35,882 nt of DNA from an uncultured Anaerolineales bacterium (lineage in GTDB: Bacteria; Chloroflexota; Anaerolineae; Anaerolineales; Villigracilaceae): contig CAIKOL010000273.1 of the NCBI GenBank assembly GCA_903829085.1, positions 1 to 35,882 of the forward strand. Reading direction: 5' to 3'. Shown piece after piece: positions 14,927 through 27,370 of this stretch (the stretch's first letter is position 1; each line of letters opens with the position of its first letter). A program made the translations under genes and the position numbers. The notes under the pieces were generated by a model. The model was not told where the DNA came from. It made no database searches and was given only the letters and a program-made list of their open reading frames with translations.

Positions 14927-15877
14927 TTACACGAAGTACTTCAACGATCCGTAAAGCCGAAGGCCAGCTGGGGTTAGCAACACAATCATTAACGCCGGAA
15001 AGATAAAAAGGCCCATTGGAAATATCATTTTGATTGGGGCTTTATGGGCTTCTTCTTCAGCATGCTGGCGGCGCTTGATCCGCATCTGATCAGATTGAAT
15101 CCGTAAAACTTTCGCCATGCTGACACCCAGCATTTCAGACTGTATCACTGCAGCCACAAAACTAGTCATCTCAGGTAAACCGAGCCGTTCTGACATATCT
15201 CTTAATGCATCGCGGCGCAATTTACCCAATTGGATTTCTCGAATTACCCGGCCAAATGCCATGGATAACTCGTTGTCCCATTTTTCATTCACCTTCGACA
15301 TGGCCGCGTCAAACCCCAGGCCTGCTTCCACGCAAATCGTCAATAAATCAAGAGCATCCGGCATTGCCTTGCGCACCCCTTTTTGCCGGCTATTTACTTT
15401 GCTCCGAATCCAGAGGTCTGGAAAGAAATAACCCAAAACTGTAAAAACCAAAACAATCAATAGCTTAATCGGAAGGGTAAATGTATGTGAGAAAAGAGAG
15501 ATCAGGAATATCAGGCCACCAAACAGACCGGCTGCCACAAAATGCAATACCATGAAAGTGGAAGCATCCATCCGGCCGGGATTCCCGGCCATTTCCAACC
15601 GTATGCGCGTCTGCTCCACCACGTGTTGAGGAGTGAAGCGGGACGATACTTCACCCAACCGGCGCATGATTGGCAGCATGACGCGTTCAGAAAAAGGTTG
15701 TGAAAGCTCAATTTCCTCAAGCGTTACAGTTTCACCACGCTGGCTGTATTCAGCCAGGCGTTCGGCCAAAGGATCATCTATTTGAGATTTCGATTTTCGG
15801 ATGCCAGCCATAACCAGCACAATGGCACCGGTGATCACACCAACAATAACCACGATGATAATGATCGTCGTAAGCAT
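14927..15877 (-). CDS. tadC: Tad pilus inner-membrane platform protein TadC
   Basis: Type II secretion F-family membrane protein that forms the platform of the Flp/Tad pilus with TadB. The 316-residue protein has an N-terminal membrane helix (about 3-24), a cytoplasmic F domain (DALDLLTICVEAGLGFDAAM, ALRDMSERLGLPEMTSFVAAVIQSE) and paired helices around 110-150 and 285-305. The start has AGGTG upstream and comes one base after the tadB stop, so the two are tightly coupled. Confidence 0.93.
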   Translation of the reverse strand: MLTTIIIIVVIVGVITGAIVLVMAGIRKSKSQIDDPLAERLAEYSQRGETVTLEEIELSQPFSERVMLPIMRRLGEVSSRFTPQHVVEQTRIRLEMAGNPGRMDASTFMVLHFVAAGLFGGLIFLISLFSHTFTLPIKLLIVLVFTVLGYFFPDLWIRSKVNSRQKGVRKAMPDALDLLTICVEAGLGFDAAMSKVNEKWDNELSMAFGRVIREIQLGKLRRDALRDMSERLGLPEMTSFVAAVIQSEMLGVSMAKVLRIQSDQMRIKRRQHAEEEAHKAPIKMIFPMGLFIFPALMIVLLTPAGLRLYGSLKYFV

Positions 15878-15878
15878 A

Positions 15879-16841
15879 TTACACCTCTACATTGGCGATA
15901 CGAGTCATTATGAAATATCCGAAAACAATTAACAATCCTGCCGCTCCCAAGGCAATGCCACCACAAAGGGCATTCGCCTTATTAAAGAATTCCATTACAT
16001 AACTGCGGTTCAAAAACCACAGAATGCAAAGCAGGATGAGTGGCATTAATGCAAGCGCTCTTCCGGAATAAATTGCCTGGGCGGTTAGAGCACGAATATC
16101 GCCCTTGATCCGGATGCGTTCACGGATCGTGTAAGAAATAACATCCATGATTTCAGCCAGATTACCGCCAACCTCGCGCTGCACGTTGATGGCAGTAACA
16201 AGAAAATCAAGGTCCTGGCTCGGGATGCGCCTGAGCAGGTTGGCAAGGGCTTTCTCCATGGGAATACCCAGTTGCATTTCTTGCACAACCCGCCTAAATT
16301 CATCGCAAATGGGAGCTGGTAATTCCTTACTCACGGCTTCCATGGCCTGCAATGTTGAAAAACCCGCCCGAAGACCATTTACCATCAGGTTTAGCATATC
16401 AGGTAATTGGTCATTAAAATGCGTCAGGCGTTTGGTTTGCTGGTTTTTCACATACATCCGAGGCAGTAATGCGCCAATTCCTCCTCCTATGGCTGCTGAA
16501 AGAAGGAGCCTTCCACCAAGCAAAAACGCGATCAATGCGCCGCCGATAACAGCGATAACATACAGGGCCATATACTCGCCCGGTTTGAATTTCAAATCGG
16601 CACGCGCCAACTCCCGGGAAATACGATCACCGAATGACGATTTCTCGACGCGTTTATTCACCCAATCAGTTAGTGCACCTTTGGTGTCGGCGGTGGGTGA
16701 GTCTGCCTTTTTATCTTCTTCAAGATATTTATTCAGGCGATCATCCATCGATGACTTATCACCAGTTGCTGAAACAATAATTCCAACAACCAGTAACACA
16801 AGAGCAATTACACCGCCGCCAATCAGTAAAAAGGTAGTCAT
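15879..16841 (-). CDS. tadB: Tad pilus inner-membrane platform protein TadB
   Basis: Partner of TadC in the pilus platform. The 320-residue protein has an N-terminal helix (about 4-24), membrane segments near 90-120 and an F domain (LPDMLNLMVNGLRAGFSTLQ, MEKALANLLRRIPSQDLDFL, REVGGNLAEIMD), then two C-terminal helices. AGGTGA precedes ATG 16841. It follows cpaF by 35 bases. The motif set is the usual one for TadB and differs from TadC in order of charged segments. Confidence 0.93.
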   Translation of the reverse strand: MTTFLLIGGGVIALVLLVVGIIVSATGDKSSMDDRLNKYLEEDKKADSPTADTKGALTDWVNKRVEKSSFGDRISRELARADLKFKPGEYMALYVIAVIGGALIAFLLGGRLLLSAAIGGGIGALLPRMYVKNQQTKRLTHFNDQLPDMLNLMVNGLRAGFSTLQAMEAVSKELPAPICDEFRRVVQEMQLGIPMEKALANLLRRIPSQDLDFLVTAINVQREVGGNLAEIMDVISYTIRERIRIKGDIRALTAQAIYSGRALALMPLILLCILWFLNRSYVMEFFNKANALCGGIALGAAGLLIVFGYFIMTRIANVEV

Positions 16842-16876
16842 TTATCACCTATCCAAAACCTTCCCGACTCCGCTCA

Positions 16877-18292
16877 CTAATATCTCTGCCTGTTGCCAAC
16901 GCCAAAGATTGAAGGCGGCAAATGAATACCAGCAGCCTCAATCTTATCCATAAATTTCGGACGCAGACCGGTCGGCCGCATATGACCGAGAACTTTTCCA
17001 TTTTCCAGGCCAGTCTGCTCGAATACAAATAAATCTGTCGTGGTAATGACATCACCTTCCATGCCACTGACTTCAGTAATATTCACCACTTTGCGCGACC
17101 CATCACGCATGCGTTCTTCGTGGACTACCAGATCAATTGCTGAAGAAACCTGTTCACGGATGGCCCGTATTGGCAATTCCATCCCCGCCATCATTGTCAT
17201 TGTTTCAAGACGTGACAGAGTGTCGCGCGGGGAGTTCGAGTGCAAAGTGGTCATGGAGCCATCATGACCCGTGTTCATGGCTTGTAACATATCCAGCGCC
17301 GCATCATCACGGATTTCACCGACGATGATCCGGTCCGGGCGCATACGAAGAGCGTTAACCACCAGATTACGAATGGTAATTTCACCTCGACCTTCAATAT
17401 TCGGCGGGCGGGACTCCAGGGTGACAACATGCTCCTGGCGAAGCTGAAGCTCGGCCGCATTTTCAATGGTAAGGATGCGTTCATCGCTCGGTATAAAGCC
17501 GGAAAGTACATTTAGCAAGGTGGTCTTGCCAGAGCCTGTACCACCGGATATAACAATATTTAATCGCGACTCAACACAGGCTTTAAGAAATTGCAGTGAT
17601 TCTGGAGTAAGTGTACCAAACTGAACCATCTGCTCAATCGTAATAGGTACTTTTGAGAATTTTCGGATGGTCAATACCGGGCCGACCAGAGAAATGGGCG
17701 GGATAACAGCATTTACGCGCGAGCCATCCGCTAACCGTGCATCCACATACGGGCTGGATTCATCAATGCGCCGTCCCAATGGAGCAACGATGCGGTCAAT
17801 AATACGCATCACATGGTCATTGCTTTCGAAAGTGACCGGCACACGATGAATTTTACCCTTGCGCTCGATATAGATATTCTTGGCCCCATTCACCATCACT
17901 TCCGTGATGGTCTCATCTTCGAGAAGAGTTTGCAGGGGACCAAGTCCCAAGATCTCGGCTGTGATCTGCTCGAAAAGGCGGGCGCGCTCGGGCCTGGAAA
18001 GAACTATATTTTCCTCGCCTAGTATTTGCTCAAACAAACCTTGTATCGTCTTGCGAACATCCTCTGTCCTGGTAATATCCATGGACGGGTCAAGTTCGGC
18101 CAAAAGCCGATTCTGGACACGGGTTTTCAGGTCAAAGTATGTTCCAGCCTGGGGTGTTGTACTGGGAGCGCTCACCCTGCGAGCCTGTAAAGATGAAAGC
18201 CGGGATGCATCGCCGCCAGCTGCCTGAGGAGTACCGGCTGATTGTTCGGGAGGTTTCCCCTGTCCTTGTTCAATCCGTTTTAGTAAAGACAT
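16877..18292 (-). CDS. cpaF: Tad pilus assembly ATPase (CpaF/TadA)
   Basis: Secretion ATPase that powers Flp pilus assembly and possibly retraction. The 471-residue protein has a helical N-terminal region, Walker A GGTGSGKT (250-257), the Asp box [11 protein letters not shown], Walker [10 protein letters not shown] and the His box [13 protein letters not shown] chose ATG 18292, which has GGAGG five bases upstream; an in-frame TTG four codons earlier would place that ribosome site inside the gene. It lies directly after the cpaE gene (20-base gap) and before tadB. Confidence 0.96.
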
Positions 18293-18312
18293 CACTGCCT
18301 CCAAATCACCTA

Positions 18313-19551
18313 TTAACGCTTAGCCGTCTGCTCGGACCCTTCCATTTCCCGTTTGACCAGTCTGGCTCGTAATGCTTCAGCCAATGTATATATTCCTCGA
18401 GCTGCTGGTTGGGTCTTATTATCGAGCATAAACGGAACGCCTCGGTTGGCTGCCGGGATGACAGTCCGTTCATCCAGCGGAATCACAGCCAGAACCTCTT
18501 GTTTTAGATTCTCTCCAATTTTCTCTGGAGAAATCGCAATCCGTTTGTCATACTTGTTCATCACAAAGGCTATTTTTTCTGCCGAGATGTTCAAAGTCAG
18601 CAGAAGGTCGAGAAACAAACGATCATTCTTTATCGAAGGGATATCCTGGGTGGCCACTAAAACAATGGAGTCAGCAATATCCAAGACCGATAGGGTTATA
18701 TCTGTGAGATACGCACTGCTATCCACAATTATGTAGGCATATAATTGCCGCAAATAACGCAGCAATTTCGTAAATTGATCTGCGTTTATCTTTTCAGCAT
18801 TTTCAGGGCGGGAAGGCGACGCTAAAACATGCACTCCTGAGGCAGCATTCTTGATCATGACATTATCAACAATTTCAGGATCGAGTTCATCAACACGTGG
18901 TGCAAGATCCAGGATCGTATTTTTCCCCTGTTCATTCAGAAAAATGGCCACATCGCCAAACTGAAGGTTCGCATCCACGATAACAACACTGGTCTCTTCA
19001 TTATGAAGCGCAACAGCCAGGTTCACTGCAATGGTAGTGCAGCCTGTCCCACCTTTGGGACTATAGATCTGGATGATTTTCCCCTGGGTCATTACACTTT
19101 TCGTCATGGACTGGCTCGTGCCACCCTGGGTTGCAATATATACCTGGCTGGATTTGGAGCGTTCTTCACGCGCCATCTTGCCAGCCCGACGAATGGCTGC
19201 CACGAGTTCATCCGGCATTGGCGGTTTCGTAAGAAAATCACGCGCGCCGACCAGCATTGCCCGGCGCATATAGTTCTGATCTCCCTGAACGGAAAGGATT
19301 ACCACCTGAACGGATGGCATTTTCTGCCGGATCTGTTCCGTAGCAGCAATACCATCCATATCAGGCATATTAATATCCATCAGAACTACATCAGGATTTG
19401 TCTCCTGAGTTAGTTGGATCGCCTCCCGTCCAGTCCGCGCGGCAGCAACCACTTCAATATCCGCTTCGAACTGCAATAATTTGCGCACATTTTCGCGTGT
19501 TTCAGCAACATCATCCACGATGACAACGCGAATCTTTTCACCATCCGCCAT
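18313..19551 (-). CDS. cpaE: Tad pilus localisation protein CpaE/TadZ
   Basis: Response-regulator receiver joined to a MinD/ParA-like ATPase; CpaE/TadZ proteins position the pilus machine, often at a pole. The 412-residue protein has an intact-looking receiver: Asp13-Asp14, phospho-acceptor Asp59 in LMDINMPDMDG, Ser in VILSV and Lys109. The ATPase has KGGTGCTT (166-173), keeping the signature Lys166 but with Cys171 where the P-loop lysine is expected, a known type of deviation in TadZ. The start ATG 19551 has GGAG upstream. A second paralogue lies at 23634. Confidence 0.93.
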   Translation of the reverse strand: MADGEKIRVVIVDDVAETRENVRKLLQFEADIEVVAAARTGREAIQLTQETNPDVVLMDINMPDMDGIAATEQIRQKMPSVQVVILSVQGDQNYMRRAMLVGARDFLTKPPMPDELVAAIRRAGKMAREERSKSSQVYIATQGGTSQSMTKSVMTQGKIIQIYSPKGGTGCTTIAVNLAVALHNEETSVVIVDANLQFGDVAIFLNEQGKNTILDLAPRVDELDPEIVDNVMIKNAASGVHVLASPSRPENAEKINADQFTKLLRYLRQLYAYIIVDSSAYLTDITLSVLDIADSIVLVATQDIPSIKNDRLFLDLLLTLNISAEKIAFVMNKYDKRIAISPEKIGENLKQEVLAVIPLDERTVIPAANRGVPFMLDNKTQPAARGIYTLAEALRARLVKREMEGSEQTAKR

Positions 19552-19599
19552 TAACAATCTCCATATACCGATTCGGAAATATTAACTCTCCTTAAGTAA

Positions 19600-19656
19600 A
19601 ACGTCCTGCAAGCTCCGTATTTTAAGCTCGGTTTTGGCTCAAACCTGCAGGACGTT
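19600..19656. repeat. 11-bp inverted repeat between cpaB and cpaE
   Basis: Perfect arms AACGTCCTGCA and TGCAGGACGTT (19600-19610 and 19646-19656) are separated by 35 bases. There is no T run, so this is not a standard terminator. In the operon transcript it would form a stem between cpaB and cpaE and may affect mRNA stability or relative expression. Confidence 0.7.
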
Positions 19657-19677
19657 GCATAACATCGCTAAGAATCT

Positions 19678-20775
19678 CTATGGGGTGGTCGTTTTGTCAT
19701 TCGGTAGAGTGGGGTCCAGGAGCGTATCAAGACGTGGCTGTACCGCGTATTGCAGCTTTGCTGGAACGGGGATATCATACTGGGTCAGAAGGTATTCCAG
19801 CGTGGCGGAATCCGGTTTCACAGCCGGCCCCGTATTGTTGGGGTTGCGCAGCGTCAGGGTGATCTTCGCGCCGCTGTAAACCAGGTAAACCAGCGTATTG
19901 GCATCATCCGGCGAAACCATCAAGGTAATAATATCCGGGCGCGTGATAACAACGGGTGCGGTTGTTTGCCCGGCAGGTGTGGGGGTTGCAGTCGCCACTG
20001 CAGCAGATGTAGACGGGGACAATTGATCAGAAGCAACTTCCCCGGGGAGCGGGAAGGAACCCACATGCAGCACCTGGATATTTTGCATGATCATCTGGGT
20101 AACCAGGCGAGGGCGCTGCTCTTCAGACGGGACCAGGTAGAGAGGCTGATTCAATGTTTGATCTAATGTCGCGTTCCCTGCTCTTGATCCAACAGAACTT
20201 ATCTGAGCAACAAGTTGATCAGGCCCTGGGGCTGTGATTCCAGCAGATAAGTTGGGCAGGATGCTCTGGTTTGTGGGGTCAACATCCACAAGGAGCATTG
20301 TCACGATGACATCCACATAATCGCCATCGCGGATCCCATATGCCACTGAGGAAAGGCGGGTGATGGGAATTGCCACGGCGGTCAAACCCTGTGGAATGAA
20401 CGGAGCCCATGTGGAGCCAGGCAGATTGACATTACCGGCTGTCGCTGACACCATCGAATCCATGATCGGTACACCCTGGGCAATCAAATATTTGGCGTAC
20501 ATGTTGGCGACATCGGCTTTGTTTGTAAAAAGACCCTGAACGAGTGCAGTATCAGGGATTTGAATGGAGCTCAACATTGCCTCAGTGATAAGAGTGCCAG
20601 GGGTGATATTCTGGCCAGCCGTAACGATATCAACGAGCGTCGTTTGCGGTACAACTGGTGTTGCAACAGGCTGATTTGTAGCTGGAGTACGGTGCATCCA
20701 CAAATATCCAGCTCCGGCAGCCACAGCGATGATAACAATCAGCGCCAAATAAATGAATATACGTCCTCGCTTCAT
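19678..20775 (-). CDS. cpaB: Flp pilus assembly protein CpaB (SAF domain)
   Basis: A 365-residue protein with a basic start (MKRGR), one membrane helix (about 6-25) and an extracytoplasmic SAF-like domain (IVTAGQNITPGTLITEAML, YLIAQGVPIMDSMV), followed by an RcpC/CpaB-like region (RDGDYVDVIVTMLLVDVD). In diderms CpaB works with a secretin; no secretin gene is present here, which fits a single-membrane Chloroflexota envelope. It is the first gene of the pilus operon, with GGAAGGAG before ATG 20775 and a predicted promoter just upstream. Confidence 0.9.
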   Translation of the reverse strand: MKRGRIFIYLALIVIIAVAAGAGYLWMHRTPATNQPVATPVVPQTTLVDIVTAGQNITPGTLITEAMLSSIQIPDTALVQGLFTNKADVANMYAKYLIAQGVPIMDSMVSATAGNVNLPGSTWAPFIPQGLTAVAIPITRLSSVAYGIRDGDYVDVIVTMLLVDVDPTNQSILPNLSAGITAPGPDQLVAQISSVGSRAGNATLDQTLNQPLYLVPSEEQRPRLVTQMIMQNIQVLHVGSFPLPGEVASDQLSPSTSAAVATATPTPAGQTTAPVVITRPDIITLMVSPDDANTLVYLVYSGAKITLTLRNPNNTGPAVKPDSATLEYLLTQYDIPVPAKLQYAVQPRLDTLLDPTLPNDKTTTP

Positions 20776-21661: not shown

Positions 21662-22075
21662 TTACATCCCCTGATCCTTGTCTTTCGCTCCGTAACCTGG
21701 ACCTGATTTGAAGAAATCATAATTGGATTGGATATCATCACGCAGGTTGACAACTTCCCCGGCGCTCAACTGCTTGACCGAATTCAGAACCACCGGAACA
21801 CTACTGTGGTTGGTGCCCTCATAGTGACCAGATAATCCAAGCTTGCTGATATATTCGCCTCCCTTTGCAGAATATGCAGCGGGGACTTCATCCTCCGGGA
21901 AAATGGCGGCAAAAGGACATTCCGGGATGCACGCACCGCAATCAATACAGGTGTCCGGGTCAATGTACATCCACGGATATTTTTCCACCGGCACACCGGG
22001 CACGATGCATTCCACCGGGCATACATCAATGCAGCCGCGGTCACGCAGGCACAGGCTGGTAATAATATGCGTCAT
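21662..22075 (-). CDS. Ferredoxin with two Fe-S cluster motifs
   Basis: A 137-residue electron carrier. The Cys residues fall at 9, 15, 19 and 23 (SLCLRDRGCIDVCPVECI) and at 43, 46, 49 and 53 (CIDCGACIPECPF). The second set is a normal 4Fe-4S motif; the first has wider spacing like that of FdxA-type dicluster ferredoxins, where it may hold a 3Fe or 4Fe cluster. The 80-residue C-terminal extension is longer than in clostridial ferredoxins. AAGGAGG precedes ATG 22075. It is flanked by its own promoter and terminator, so it is probably monocistronic. The redox partner cannot be told from the neighbours. Confidence 0.93.
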   Translation of the reverse strand: MTHIITSLCLRDRGCIDVCPVECIVPGVPVEKYPWMYIDPDTCIDCGACIPECPFAAIFPEDEVPAAYSAKGGEYISKLGLSGHYEGTNHSSVPVVLNSVKQLSAGEVVNLRDDIQSNYDFFKSGPGYGAKDKDQGM

Positions 22076-22115: not shown

Positions 22116-22144
22116 ATTATATCTGTCCTTAATAAAAATAGCAA
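22116..22144 (-). promoter_or_regulatory. Predicted promoter of ferredoxin gene
   Basis: TTGCTA (22144-22139), a 17-base spacer and perfect TATAAT (22121-22116) on the minus strand, about 40 bases before the ferredoxin start. Consensus prediction. Confidence 0.6.
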
Positions 22145-22155
22145 TAAAAAACGGA

Positions 22156-22352
22156 ACGGACGACAGGGCTTTCAAAAAGTATGAAAGTCAGGTTGTCCCC
22201 ACCCTTTGCACCCCCGCCACATGGCGCCTAAACAATCGATTGTGGCTTGTAGCCGCATCGATTGGAAGAGGATCTTGGGGTGCAGGCGGGTGACAAGCCA
22301 CCCGCCTACACCCCAAACCCCTACTTTGTGAAAAGTGTGGACGGACGAACAG
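22156..22352. repeat. REP/MITE-like hairpin array
   Basis: This gap of over 300 bases is packed with stems: CTTTCA/TGAAAG (22169-22187), CGCCA/TGGCG near 22215, a long stem CAATCGAT...ATCGATTG (22233-22264), and an 18-bp stem with one mismatch and a 6-base loop (22275-22292 with 22299-22316). Near-identical short sequences (ACGGACGACAG and ACGGACGAACAG) lie near both edges. No T run follows and no convincing protein is encoded. The pattern fits a repetitive extragenic palindrome or miniature transposon; copies elsewhere would confirm it. Confidence 0.6.
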
Positions 22353-22455
22353 ATATCACCCAAAACAGTCATTTTTTGATATGATATAGACAATCATGAG
22401 CATGATCATTTTCTGGGCTGAGTTATTCGGAAAATTTCATACCTCAATAACTATG

Positions 22456-22472
22456 AAACTATCCGATAGTTT
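22456..22472. promoter_or_regulatory. Perfect inverted repeat before 22482 start
   Basis: AAACTATC, one base, GATAGTTT: two perfect 8-bp arms ending nine bases before ATG 22482, overlapping the place of the ribosome site. It could be a repressor operator or an RNA hairpin that hides the start. A second palindrome, ATCATG-AG-CATGAT (22393-22406), lies further upstream. Confidence 0.55.
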
Positions 22473-22481
22473 TGGAATTAT

Positions 22482-23612
22482 ATGAGCAATGGGACTAATT
22501 TCTTAAAGCGTTCGCCTCTAATTACACTCGGCTTGATTTTTCTTACACTGGTTATTCTCATCAACGCAATTCCAGCAGGGGAAAAAATCGGGGAACGGGG
22601 AACGCCTACCGATTCGTTTCAAAATGGGAACGGTACTATCACAGCCAGCTTTGCGCCAACTCTGGCCAGTATTATCTCTCAGACACCTGCATCGCTCGTT
22701 GCAACCACCCAATCACCAACATTTGATCTGCCAACCCAGGTTGCTTCCGTATCTTCAAGTAATGCGTGCGCCACGGCCTGGGGAATCACGCCACCCACAA
22801 CGATCCCGGATTGGTTGGGAACACCCTCCGATGCGGGTGATCTACAAACAGAAGTCAAGTATTATCTGCTGGCTGGTCACTTAATTTCAAGTGGATCGAT
22901 TAATGCAAGCGATTGTATTGATGGAGGCCTTACCCAAAACGGAGCTGCCAATACCTGCGGTATGGAGAAGGCTTATCCACAAGTCATACTATGGCAAAAT
23001 CAATTTGATCAGGAAATATTTGCGGCAGCACAGGAAAACCAAATTCCTGCAGAAGTCTTAAAAAGGCTCTTCGCTCAGGAAACACAATTTTGGCCACCGG
23101 ATTATTATGCCCCACCGGCATATGGAATAGGAAATGTAACCAGCCGGGGTATTGAACCTCTCTTCATTTGGTACGATGATATTTATCAAAATACTTGCCA
23201 GGAAGTTTATTCACAATCTTGTACGCAGTCATATCTGGCGCTTCCCATCCACGACCGGCAAATCTTAAGAGGCTTTTTTATAAGTCGGTATATTGATGCG
23301 TACTGTGATACCTGCCTCAACAGCATCGATTTGGAGAAAACAAAGCGAAGCATTGATTATTTCGCCAAACTTATCGTAGCCAATTGTTATCAAGTGGATC
23401 AAATTCTCCAGAATCATAGTTTTTCCACAAATACGCTCTCCTATGAAGATGCTTGGCGCCTGACGCTGGCAAACTATACCGTTGGCCCTACCTGTCTGGA
23501 TAATGGTCTGGAACAGATGGATGTGTCAAAAGGCTTTTCATGGGATGGTTTCAATGACAAACTTGGACCAAATTGCAGCACGGATATCTATCTTGGCGCT
23601 ATAATGCATTAA
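22482..23612 (+). CDS. Exported lytic-transglycosylase-like protein
   Basis: A 376-residue protein with one N-terminal membrane helix (about 12-30), then a Ser/Thr-rich linker (40-95) and a Cys-containing extracytoplasmic domain. Residues 187-223 read IPAEVLKRLFAQETQFWPP ... YGIGNVTSRG, which resembles the catalytic-Glu and Gly-rich motifs of SLT-type lytic transglycosylases; Glu200 would be catalytic. Overall similarity is weak, so cleavage of peptidoglycan is inferred. Only a poor ribosome site (GGA) is seen. It is the first gene of a three-gene set with a TadZ-like protein 21 bases downstream. Confidence 0.8.
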   Translation: MSNGTNFLKRSPLITLGLIFLTLVILINAIPAGEKIGERGTPTDSFQNGNGTITASFAPTLASIISQTPASLVATTQSPTFDLPTQVASVSSSNACATAWGITPPTTIPDWLGTPSDAGDLQTEVKYYLLAGHLISSGSINASDCIDGGLTQNGAANTCGMEKAYPQVILWQNQFDQEIFAAAQENQIPAEVLKRLFAQETQFWPPDYYAPPAYGIGNVTSRGIEPLFIWYDDIYQNTCQEVYSQSCTQSYLALPIHDRQILRGFFISRYIDAYCDTCLNSIDLEKTKRSIDYFAKLIVANCYQVDQILQNHSFSTNTLSYEDAWRLTLANYTVGPTCLDNGLEQMDVSKGFSWDGFNDKLGPNCSTDIYLGAIMH

Positions 23613-23633
23613 TAAATCAGGAGGCAGATTCAT

Positions 23634-24896
23634 ATGGAAATAATGAAAGTGATCGTGTTCGAAATTCTCCCGATGGTCGGAAAGAATATTGCTGATCTGC
23701 TCAAGTCAATCCCGCTTGTTGATTTGATAGAGCATGATGTTAACAATACCGAAGAGGCTATCGAATTAATTCTATCTCATCATCCAGATGTCGTTATCTT
23801 GGGTAACGATTTCCCCGGGATTGATGGCTACTACTTTACAAAAATGATTCGTAAAGAAGCTGCCCCAACCCAGGTTATTATGATTGCCGAGATGGTGAGC
23901 GCAGAATCTGTCCGACAGGCTATGCGGGCAGGAGCATGCGATTTTATTAGCTACAAGACCCTGACGGTCGAAGAACTATCATTGGCGCTTGAAAATGCAG
24001 CGCAATTGGTAGCGGAGGAAAAAGAAATACGGGTTTCAGCTAAAGAACAAAAAGAACCCGTTGCCCAACTACAAGCAAAAACCCGTACGAAAAAGCCTAC
24101 TAAAATAATCTCCCTTTACAGTCCCAAGGGAGGTTCTGGGGTCAGTACAATAACGACTAACCTTGCCTGGTCATTATCCTCGAACGGGCTTAAGGTGCTA
24201 ATCGTGGATGGTGATTTTCTTTTTGGCGACATAGGAGTATTACTTAACCAACAGAGCAACCATTCCATATCGGATTTGGTTAGGTTTGAAGGAAATCTCG
24301 ACGAAGATGTTATCAAGGAAGTGATCAACCATGGGGATGTTGATCTCCTTGCAGCTCCCTCAAATGTTGAAAAATCAGTTGAAATTAATGGCCCCATCTT
24401 TGAGAAAATAGTTAAGGAGTTATCTCAACTCGATTATGATTTCTTGCTAATAAATTCGGCTTCACATCTTTCGGACTCAACCATTGTTGCTTTGGAGATG
24501 GCAGACACTCTCATCCTGGTTGGAACTCAGGAAATTTCGTCTCTGAGAGCGAATGGCTTGTTCTTGGATCTGACCAGGACCCTTTCCATCTCACGAGATA
24601 ATCTTATGCTGGTTATCAACCGTTTTGATAAAGGGTCAATCCTAACCCCGGGTAAATTTAATGAATATCTAAAAATAGCAGTTTCTCATACCATTCCTCA
24701 AGATTACGGGACCGTCCTGCTGGCAAACAATTTGGGCGTCCCCTTCGTCAAGGACCATAAGGGTTTACCGATTACGCTTGCAATCGAATCTTTAGCAGAT
24801 ATGCTGATAACCGAGAAGAGCCAGAAAAAAGCATCTGGAGTTTCTCAAGTAATTAAATCTGTCGCTTCCATTTTCAAAACGAAAAAAACTAAGTGA
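23634..24896 (+). CDS. TadZ/CpaE-like ATPase with degenerate receiver
   Basis: A 420-residue paralogue of the protein at 18313. The N-terminal receiver-like domain (about 4-125) lacks the acidic pair (VFE at the place of VDD) and has Gly57 where the phospho-acceptor Asp should be (VVILGNDFPGIDG), so it should not be phosphorylated. The MinD/ParA-like domain has KGGSGVST (165-172): signature Lys165 kept, P-loop lysine replaced by Val170, then VLIVDGDFLFGDIGVLL. An atypical receiver is known in TadZ. Start ATG 23634 has GGAGG nine bases upstream. Likely role: polar or membrane landmark for the neighbouring proteins or the Tad pilus. Confidence 0.9.
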   Translation: MEIMKVIVFEILPMVGKNIADLLKSIPLVDLIEHDVNNTEEAIELILSHHPDVVILGNDFPGIDGYYFTKMIRKEAAPTQVIMIAEMVSAESVRQAMRAGACDFISYKTLTVEELSLALENAAQLVAEEKEIRVSAKEQKEPVAQLQAKTRTKKPTKIISLYSPKGGSGVSTITTNLAWSLSSNGLKVLIVDGDFLFGDIGVLLNQQSNHSISDLVRFEGNLDEDVIKEVINHGDVDLLAAPSNVEKSVEINGPIFEKIVKELSQLDYDFLLINSASHLSDSTIVALEMADTLILVGTQEISSLRANGLFLDLTRTLSISRDNLMLVINRFDKGSILTPGKFNEYLKIAVSHTIPQDYGTVLLANNLGVPFVKDHKGLPITLAIESLADMLITEKSQKKASGVSQVIKSVASIFKTKKTK

Positions 24897-24953
24897 TCAG
24901 GATCCAGCTAACAGTCACCGGATCAAAGTTAATTGATTCTTAAAAGAGCAGCT

Positions 24954-26600
24954 ATGGGAAAAAGAAAAGAAGCAAAAACACGCAAACAAGGTAAGAAACA
25001 GCCCTTCAATGGCTTTAATCAAATGTTCCATAATCTTAAAAATAAGTTCCAAAAAATAAAGGCTGATTATCAAGAATGGCGCTCACTGCCAAGAATCATA
25101 TTGGGTAAAAAGGGACAAGCACAAGCAGAGATTCCCGGTTTACAAAACGCTTTGACCCTTTATCGAGCCTATGCGACCACTTGTGGTCACATCGCATTCA
25201 ATACCGATAGGAATATTCGCGCATCGTATTATTGGCTAATCAATGAGTTTAATGAATTGGAGTCATTTGAGGCAGAATATTATTTACCATTATGCTCCCT
25301 GAAAACCCTGCGTTCGCTCAATGAAAGATGGGATGGCATAATTTCCCGGCAAATAGAATTTTCCCAGTTAATTGAGCAAGCACCTGTCGCTCTTGAATTT
25401 TATAACAAGATGGCCACTACGAAAGACCAGCAGCGACGAAAAAGGAAAGAAGGTGCGGAGATAAACCAAAGATTGTCAAAAGCATATCAATCTCATAAGA
25501 ACGCTATGGAATATATCGAAAAATATGATCAGGAAAATAGCATCAGTGCTTTTGGTGCATCTGTACTGAGTCTTGATAAAGCCAGAGAATATTGGTCGGA
25601 AAAAATGGAAGAGGTTCAAAAACTGGCAAATTCCAGCAATGAACCCAACCGAACCATTACTGAAATCGAGAACCTGGTAAAGGTTATTTATGATGCACCA
25701 GGCCTGGCCAAATGGGTAAATGACATTGAAAAACGTTTTAATCGTCTTTCTTATGATCATGAGTTATTGGTAAACTCGTATGGTAAAGCCGTGATCCAAA
25801 AGGAAATCCTGGACGAATTTACATCGGTAATAAACAATATCATTCCGAAACTGTGGCAACGGGGTCAAAAAGATCAATTAACCCAATACTTGGGGGATGT
25901 GGAAAACTTTCTGACAATATATGAGCCTGAAGTGGAGAAGGAAATCGCCTACGAAGAGAGGCACAGTATAAAGAGAGAGAATACGGTTTCAGAGCAGGAG
26001 CAGCATCTAACCCGACTGATGGAATTAACAAAAATATTCATTACGGCAATGGATATTCGCGACCCCTTGATGAACACCCATTCAATGACTGTTGCCCGTC
26101 TTGCTGTCGCAACCGGTAAAGTAATGAACTGGAGTCCGGAAGAGATCCAGTATCTGGAAATAGCTGCTATGCTTCATGATATTGGAAAAATCTGGATTCC
26201 AGAATCAATCCTGACAAAAAAGGGAAAATTAAGCAGCGAGGATATCGGCAAGCTGCGCATGCATCCAATTTACGGAGCACAAATCTTACAATCCTCAGGG
26301 TTGTTTGAGCAAATAACTCCCTGGATCTATCATCATCAGGAGTTATGGAATGGGACCGGCTATCCAGATGGTTTGAAAGAAGAAGAAATACCGATCCAAT
26401 CGAGAATCATTTCGATTTGCGAATCATTTGATGCCATGCTGGCTGGAAACGCCAACAAATTAAAACTAACCATCGAGCAGGCACTGGATAGAGTAAAGTA
26501 TGAAGCAGGTACGCTCTTTGATCCTGTGATTGTCGAGGCATTTGTAAAGGCTGTCGAAACCCAGGAGATGAACTATCTATTGAAATATGTTGCCAAGTGA
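24954..26600 (+). CDS. HD-GYP domain protein, predicted c-di-GMP phosphodiesterase
   Basis: A 548-residue protein. The first 40 residues are very basic (MGKRKEAKTRKQGKK), residues about 60-350 are mostly helical with coiled-coil character, and residues about 365-535 form an HD-GYP domain with His376, HDIGK (His408, Asp409), HH at 460-461 and GTGYPDG (467-473). Active HD-GYP enzymes hydrolyse cyclic di-GMP; the key residues look complete. No signal peptide or membrane helix is seen; the basic N-terminus might bind membrane or nucleic acid. I chose ATG 24954; an in-frame ATT codon seven residues earlier lacks a ribosome site. It is third in the set with the transglycosylase-like and TadZ-like genes. 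Confidence 0.9.
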   Translation: MGKRKEAKTRKQGKKQPFNGFNQMFHNLKNKFQKIKADYQEWRSLPRIILGKKGQAQAEIPGLQNALTLYRAYATTCGHIAFNTDRNIRASYYWLINEFNELESFEAEYYLPLCSLKTLRSLNERWDGIISRQIEFSQLIEQAPVALEFYNKMATTKDQQRRKRKEGAEINQRLSKAYQSHKNAMEYIEKYDQENSISAFGASVLSLDKAREYWSEKMEEVQKLANSSNEPNRTITEIENLVKVIYDAPGLAKWVNDIEKRFNRLSYDHELLVNSYGKAVIQKEILDEFTSVINNIIPKLWQRGQKDQLTQYLGDVENFLTIYEPEVEKEIAYEERHSIKRENTVSEQEQHLTRLMELTKIFITAMDIRDPLMNTHSMTVARLAVATGKVMNWSPEEIQYLEIAAMLHDIGKIWIPESILTKKGKLSSEDIGKLRMHPIYGAQILQSSGLFEQITPWIYHHQELWNGTGYPDGLKEEEIPIQSRIISICESFDAMLAGNANKLKLTIEQALDRVKYEAGTLFDPVIVEAFVKAVETQEMNYLLKYVAK

Positions 26601-26616
26601 GCCAAAAGAAAAAGAT

Positions 26617-26680
26617 CGAGTTTCGTTAAGTTGCGTCCTTTGATTACACCAACTTGCACGAAACTCGTTCTTTATTTAAT
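26617..26680 (+). terminator. Terminator after HD-GYP gene
   Basis: A 10-bp stem CGAGTTTCGT/ACGAAACTCG (26617-26626 and 26658-26667) with an inner AAGTTG/CAACTT stem is followed by TTCTTTATTT. It closes the three-gene set beginning at 22482. Confidence 0.75.
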
Positions 26681-26730: not shown

Positions 26731-27336
26731 TTACTTTACTGAGTATCGGCGGGAAACCTCGCCCCAATTCACTACATTCCACCAATTGCCGACATATTCA
26801 GCACGGCGGTTTTGATACTTCAAGTAATAGGCGTGCTCCCATACATCCAGCCCCAAAATCGGGGTTAATCCATCTGATATTGGATTATCCTGGTTGGCAG
26901 TCGAAATAACTACCAATCCGCTGCCCTTCTTTACCAGCCAGGCCCATCCAGAGCCGAAACGGCCCATGGCAGCCTTCTCGAACTCAGCCTTGAAATTTGC
27001 GAAGCTTCCGAATGAATTGGAAATAACATTGGCAAGGTCGCCTTGCGGTTCACCGCCTGCCTTGGGAGCCATCACCTGCCAGAACAAATCGTGATTCCAG
27101 GTTCCGCCCCCGTGATTACGAACAGCACTGCGGATATCTTCAGGAACTGCGTTCAAGTCCATGAGCAGGCCTTCGAGTGACTTACCCGCCAATTCAGGAT
27201 GCTTTTCCAGCGCCGCGTTCAGATTGGTGACATAAGCTGCATGATGTTTGTCGTGGTGAATCTGCATCGTCAGAGTATCAATAAAAGGCTCTAAAGCCTC
27301 ATAGGCGTATGGGAGGGGATTAAGTTGGATTGACAT
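26731..27336 (-). CDS. sodA: Superoxide dismutase, Mn/Fe family (Mn-type signature)
   Basis: Converts superoxide to oxygen and hydrogen peroxide. The 201-residue protein has metal ligands His27, His82, Asp164 and His168 (DVWEHAYY). Gly77/78 before TWNHDLFW and Gln149 in TANQDNP are marks of the Mn-type, though metal use cannot be fixed from sequence. ATG 27336 has AAGGAG upstream; an earlier in-frame codon lies within that ribosome site. No signal peptide, so it is cytoplasmic. A strong promoter and an operator-like palindrome precede it, which suits oxidative or metal control. Confidence 0.96.
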
Positions 27337-27370
27337 AGGGTTTTCTCCTTGTTTCAAGCAGATTATACAA

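Follow-up and report, generated by a model that had tools for sequence, protein, structure and literature searches.

Three closely spaced plus-strand genes, here called g1, g2 and g3, form a transferable cassette in the genome of an uncultured Anaerolineales bacterium (family Villigracilaceae), and the reading that we favour over its rivals, at a probability of roughly 0.45, is that this cassette encodes a placed wall-opening activity, linked to cyclic di-guanosine monophosphate (c-di-GMP), for a Tad-type pilus. The genes lie on contig CAIKOL010000273.1, a stretch of 35,882 nucleotides that is referred to below as the window. Their reading frames, common strand and gaps of 21 and 57 bp are as an initial annotation of this DNA had described them: g1 (22482-23612, 376 residues) encodes an exported or membrane-anchored relative of SLT-fold lytic transglycosylases; g2 (23634-24896, 420 residues) encodes a receiver plus MinD-like ATPase protein that resembles TadZ/CpaE and falls in a separate clade, here called the module clade; and g3 (24954-26600, 548 residues, with an ATG start and a possible alternative upstream start at TTG 24933) encodes a helical N-terminal part of about 360 residues followed by an HD-GYP domain.

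The grouping of the trio is beyond chance, because its order recurs in a sister species and because g2 and g3 are adjacent in all nine loci found, which belong to three families. In the sister species (genome G498), the three genes stand in the same order with gaps of 17 and 46 bp and with unrelated flanks, and a g1-family gene lies beside the g2-g3 pair in seven of the nine loci; the trio are thus neighbours in related genomes, as the initial annotation had supposed. In Bellilinea (three species) and Thermanaerothrix (two), g2 is divergent from g3, and a small Cys-rich gene comes next, followed by the g1-family gene. The same divergent arrangement of g2 and g3 is found in a metagenome-assembled genome (MAG) of Anaerolinea thermophila, where the g1-family gene lies elsewhere, and in the MAG Kmv39, on a short contig where g3 is followed by an rcpC gene. 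Module proteins of different genera share about 30% identity, and the cultured carriers are Bellilinea caldifistulae and Thermanaerothrix daxensis. In Bellilinea and Thermanaerothrix, the small gene that separates g3 from g1 encodes a DnaJ-type Cys-rich protein of 90-95 residues (locus L102, 11589-11861; also L087, L103 and L107) and is absent from the window; it is listed in some of these loci, and in others an overlapping reverse reading frame was chosen at the spot.

The trio was inserted at its present site. The spacer between the upstream ferredoxin gene (21662-22075, minus strand) and the downstream superoxide dismutase gene (26731-27357, minus strand) measures 4655 bp in the window, compared with about 118 bp, without the trio, in four sister species; spacer comparison and guanine-plus-cytosine (GC) content place the inserted low-GC segment approximately at 22132-26640. 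The GC content of the trio is 42.4% against 51-52% in its surroundings, and that of the G498 trio is 42.7% against 59% downstream. An empty site in relatives, deviant composition and a different location in a second host, the usual criteria of horizontal acquisition, were all observed. With regard to self-mobility, for which an integrase, a transposase or terminal repeats would speak, no further sizeable open reading frame was seen in the insert. The window and most of the related sequences are draft contigs, in which contamination is low but not nil (7% in Kmv39). Insertion and low GC are also what would be seen if the trio were ordinary linked cargo, that is, three unrelated genes on one horizontally gained stretch; this is highly improbable, since the trio stands in order at another site in a second species and the families occur together in other genera at about 30% identity. 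The terminator with which the trio had been said to end corresponds to a strong plus-strand hairpin at about 26611-26674 (RNAfold, -25.8 kcal/mol), but is no more than probable, because the loop measures 11 nt, a clean T-run is lacking and a pattern-based terminator scan does not call it. The hairpin also has a long stem and lies close to where the inserted segment ends, and could be either a terminator or an insertion mark. A canonical tad operon (14927-20775, minus strand), with rcpC, tadZ (18313-19557), tadA, tadB and tadC, lies outside the cassette. Because the trio was inserted into an otherwise empty spacer, its nearness to this operon is no evidence of shared function, and proximity was dropped as a functional argument after the empty sites had been found in the sister species.

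The assignment of g1 to the SLT enzymes rests on its fold, its motifs and the Pfam matches of its relatives, because searches with g1 alone against Pfam, NCBIfam and PDB sequences matched nothing useful, and its family profile found nothing in the PDB. The protein has a single strongly hydrophobic N-terminal segment (residues about 12-32), a low-complexity linker to about residue 92 and a Cys-rich SLT domain (91-376). An AlphaFold model of residues 91-376 (predicted local distance difference test score, pLDDT, 92.7; predicted template modelling score, pTM, 0.90) aligned by VIA-align with MltE (Z 12.7), MltC (12.6) and MltF (12.0), and transglycosylases took all the top rows and, with lysozymes, filled the list; Foldseek of the model alone was weak (best E 0.47), with the same enzymes in its top rows. 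The modelled domain is of the SLT/goose-lysozyme fold, and PF01464 (SLT) was matched by 38 of 42 aligned family members, though not by the window g1 itself. The predicted catalytic Glu200 (codon 23079-23081) lies in ETQFWPP in the window and ESQFWPG in relatives, so that the E-S/T motif of the catalytic Glu is present as E200-T201; this Glu is 98% conserved among aligned relatives, invariant in the A1 alignment and kept in the sister species. The initial annotation had proposed an exported SLT-like protein with Glu200 and a lysozyme/SLT-related fold, and all three features agree with these results. The family motifs ESQFWP, GLGQ and NYN/NYHAGPG mirror ES, GLMQ and AYN of the family-1 transglycosylases. 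The window and sister-species proteins, which are 59% identical and share Glu200 and the Cys framework, have GIGN and NYT at the places where most relatives have GLGQ and NYN or NYH. Catalysis by g1 is therefore likely but not certain, because the Glu is kept but GIGN and NYT replace the signature residues.

These altered residues, carried by the window g1 and by its ortholog in the same genus, would suit an alternative in which the unit is the g2-g3 pair alone, acting as a messenger-responsive positional switch, and g1 was recruited separately in two lineages and has a function that is linked but distinct, possibly that of a non-catalytic peptidoglycan binder in the window. The adjacency of the pair in nine of nine loci and the location of the g1-family gene elsewhere in the Anaerolinea MAG are also consistent with it, and the g1 tree splits the two module versions, though a single clade of module g1 proteins is not rejected (p-AU 0.081, approximately unbiased test). 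One origin of all module g1 proteins could likewise not be shown from this tree and test. We nevertheless consider the alternative unlikely: a g1-family member is beside the pair in seven of nine loci, repeated recruitment would still imply a functional tie, and g1 has retained Glu200 and its Cys framework.

g2 combines a receiver with a ParA/MinD ATPase domain whose deviant Walker A motif carries the signature Lys (PKGG). The ATPase part scored best against MinD models and also matched Ssd (septum site-determining), an actinobacterial CpaE homolog; the match to Pfam TadZ_N was sub-threshold, and g2 is 32-34% identical to the TadZ of the window's tad operon. Because that operon already has rcpC, tadZ, tadA, tadB and tadC, g2 is an extra paralog. 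In a tree limited to Anaerolineales, g2 and every g3-adjacent TadZ-like gene found form one clade apart from the tad-operon TadZ proteins (support 98/94, and 100/99 once the most distant rows were removed) and branching beside them; a long branch leads to the window pair of g2 proteins, and clade-specific residues agree with the grouping. To judge from its own clade and the separate TadZ of the operon, g2 is not the TadZ of the Tad pilus. Asn274 (codon 24453-24455) occupies the Walker-B-like Asp position; 9/9 module proteins have Asn there, compared with Asp in 34/34 proteins of the Tad type and in 4/4 that are kinase-linked. Gly57 (codon 23802-23804) occupies the receiver phospho-acceptor position, at which the module proteins have Glu (six), Gly (two) or Asp (one), so that the Asp is lost in eight of nine, compared with Asp in 34/34 Tad-type proteins. 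The TadZ/CpaE-like ATPase of the initial annotation was thus placed in the right family, though its clade is a separate one, residues of both its ATPase and its receiver are altered, and the nearby operon has its own TadZ. From these residue alignments, we infer that g2 would be a landmark that lacks the usual phosphorylation and hydrolyses ATP poorly.

The same genus has other TadZ-like genes. On contig G538:C329 (L154, 3242-8071), three genes stand in a row on one strand, one of kinase/receiver/Hpt type, one of receiver-MinD type and one a distant member of the g1 family (579 residues); the TadZ-like gene beside this transglycosylase-like gene is from a different TadZ-like clade. At L155 (4086-8489), L157 (9591-13966) and L159 (5951-10348), multidomain proteins of about 1025-1060 residues with weak TadZ matches are paired with a receiver-MinD gene in which the Walker signature Lys is replaced by Arg, which gives this genus a second TadZ-like system.

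The C-terminal domain of g3, which follows the part of about 360 residues, matched HD_5/HD-GYP at 1.6e-35. Its invariant motif residues are H408, D409, H437, H460, H461, G469, Y470 and P471 (HD, H, HH and GYP), and its nearest solved relatives are HD-GYP phosphodiesterases. Glu490 (codon 26421-26423) occupies the metal-binding Asp position of ADxFDA and pairs with the Asp of PDB 4mcw in the alignment. An enzyme that removes c-di-GMP had been proposed; the HD-GYP domain is there, but hydrolysis is not to be assumed, because all nine members have Glu in place of this metal-ligand Asp. The N-terminal part is helical and gave no Pfam family above threshold and no credible PDB relative; the whole-protein model (pTM 0.39) is too low for a fold claim. 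Relatives of g3 are rare, occurring in 5/201 genomes of the order, 2/150 of the family, 3/396 of the class and 3/400 of the phylum sample (overlapping samples) and at seven loci in GTDB contigs, and none was found in nine other genomes of the genus, several of them at least 90% complete. c-di-GMP is probably made in the host, because seven GGDEF matches, five of them strong and two weaker, were obtained in the window genome. Anti-phage defence was rejected as a role for the cassette, the PADLOC matches being generic ATPase and HD domains.

A putative link to Tad pili is independently supported by g1 relatives in Tad clusters and by the location of g3 near rcpC in Kmv39. Although relatives of g1 are common in the order (113/201 genomes), and those of 519 residues and more are near no Tad cluster among the loci checked, short relatives (about 330-340 residues) sit in Tad clusters of other Anaerolineales; these short forms are assigned to SLT by homology to g1 and kept motifs, with Pfam SLT giving 0.0018 for one and missing the others. 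In G263, one strand carries an SLT gene and genes for TadE, TadG, RcpC, TadZ, TadB, TadC, a TPR protein and TadA. In G430 and G471, the SLT gene is accompanied by a gene for a single-domain HD-GYP protein that retains the canonical ADVFDA, two TadE genes and two TadG genes, and the G430 locus reads on through RcpC, TadZ, TadB and TadC. Two species of a single genus thus have transglycosylase-like, HD-GYP and TadZ genes together within a Tad cluster as well. In G452, the SLT gene has a prepilin peptidase gene, weakly matched, on one side and TadE/TadA-like genes on the other, and G369 and G303 are weaker cases of Tad-linked short relatives. In Kmv39, an rcpC follows g3 on the same strand at a distance of 242 bp. 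The Kmv39 loci L089 and L112 may join, sharing at least 31 bases in rcpC, but the flanking rcpC residues differ, which may instead reflect two rcpC copies or strain variation. Tad-type clusters at L182 (8979-18541) and L183 (1-5384) are headed by an SLT-like gene, with a canonical single-domain HD-GYP gene, oppositely oriented, between it and tadE, and a gene for a group II intron maturase/reverse transcriptase lies within the Tad-like cluster at L180 (4088-5854).

Several observations weigh against service to a Tad pilus or against the proposed activities. The cassette has no pilin, motor or platform gene; its closeness to tad in the window is due to insertion, the sister species' tad operon is on another contig, and no tad operon adjoins the modules of Bellilinea and Thermanaerothrix. 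The HD-GYP gene in the G430 and G471 Tad clusters is on the opposite strand. In addition, the window g1 is without two usual SLT signature residues (Gln to N218, and Asn or His to T333), the g1 tree places it apart from the Bellilinea-type module g1, and the Glu at the final metal ligand makes hydrolysis by g3 uncertain. Of the initial proposals, service to a Tad pilus has lost its argument from the nearby operon, a proximity that the sister species does not share, and has gained one from the Tad-cluster relatives and Kmv39. The absence of a pilus gene and the fact that the modules of Bellilinea, Thermanaerothrix and the sister species stand apart from tad operons would also fit a cassette that positions the remodelling of the wall for growth, septation or a filamentous form, with g2 as a MinD/Ssd-like marker, g3 as a messenger-dependent switch and g1 as a morphogenetic transglycosylase. 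The MinD and Ssd matches of g2 and the common long g1 relatives outside Tad clusters point in the same direction. We regard this explanation as somewhat unlikely, because g1 relatives of similar short length are inside Tad clusters, the domain make-up of g2 (receiver plus ATPase) is nearer to TadZ than to MinD, and sporadic presence (2/150 family genomes) is unlike a core growth function.

Each of the three proteins resembles a known family and departs from it. g2 is like TadZ/CpaE of Tad pili in its receiver, MinD-like ATPase and signature Lys (PKGG), and differs in its place outside the tad operon, its clade, its Walker-B Asn, the lost receiver Asp (8/9) and its HD-GYP partner. g1 shares the fold, the conserved Glu, export and a gene link to an envelope machine with family-1 SLT enzymes (MltE, MltC, MltF and the VirB1-type enzymes of transport systems), but is part of a Cys-rich Anaerolineales family, scores below the Pfam SLT model in the window's version, with signature positions taken by N218 and T333. 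g3 shares the HD, H, HH and GYP motifs and the fold with the HD-GYP phosphodiesterases PmGH (4mcw), PA4781 (4r8z) and V-cGAP3 (5z7c) and with c-di-GMP-bound DvhD (9rbz), and differs in the Glu at the metal-ligand Asp (9/9) and in its long helical N-terminal part without a matched family. The Caulobacter transglycosylase homologue PleA and CpaE are both needed for polar Tad pilus assembly, according to the statement in PMC5182063 that cites Viollier and Shapiro 2003. This is a precedent for a transglycosylase homologue that is needed for CpaE-dependent pili. To our knowledge, PleA is not encoded with cpaE or an HD-GYP gene, and we know of no such cassette. A 2025 paper states that no transglycosylase had been described for the Tad pilus, and no paper on TadZ and HD-GYP together was found among open-licence papers.

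Our data are most consistent with a model whereby the cassette places peptidoglycan opening at one cell site, most likely letting a Tad-type pilus machine cross the wall. In this model, g2, a locked TadZ paralog, would serve as a stable landmark at the membrane or a pole; g3 would bind g2 via its helical N-terminal part and read or lower c-di-GMP at the site; and g1, as a membrane-anchored SLT-type lytic transglycosylase, would cut the wall there, bringing the three proteins into contact. More broadly, and as a tentative proposal, Anaerolineales may have dedicated, gene-encoded Tad wall-opening enzymes, of which one version would be a cassette whose locked TadZ paralog and HD-GYP switch set the site and the c-di-GMP level. 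The clade-wide replacement of Asp by Asn in a TadZ paralog offers a natural test of the role of ATP hydrolysis in this landmark family, and the Tad-cluster transglycosylase genes, together with the cassette, provide named candidates for wall-opening partners of the Tad pilus, of which hardly any is yet known.

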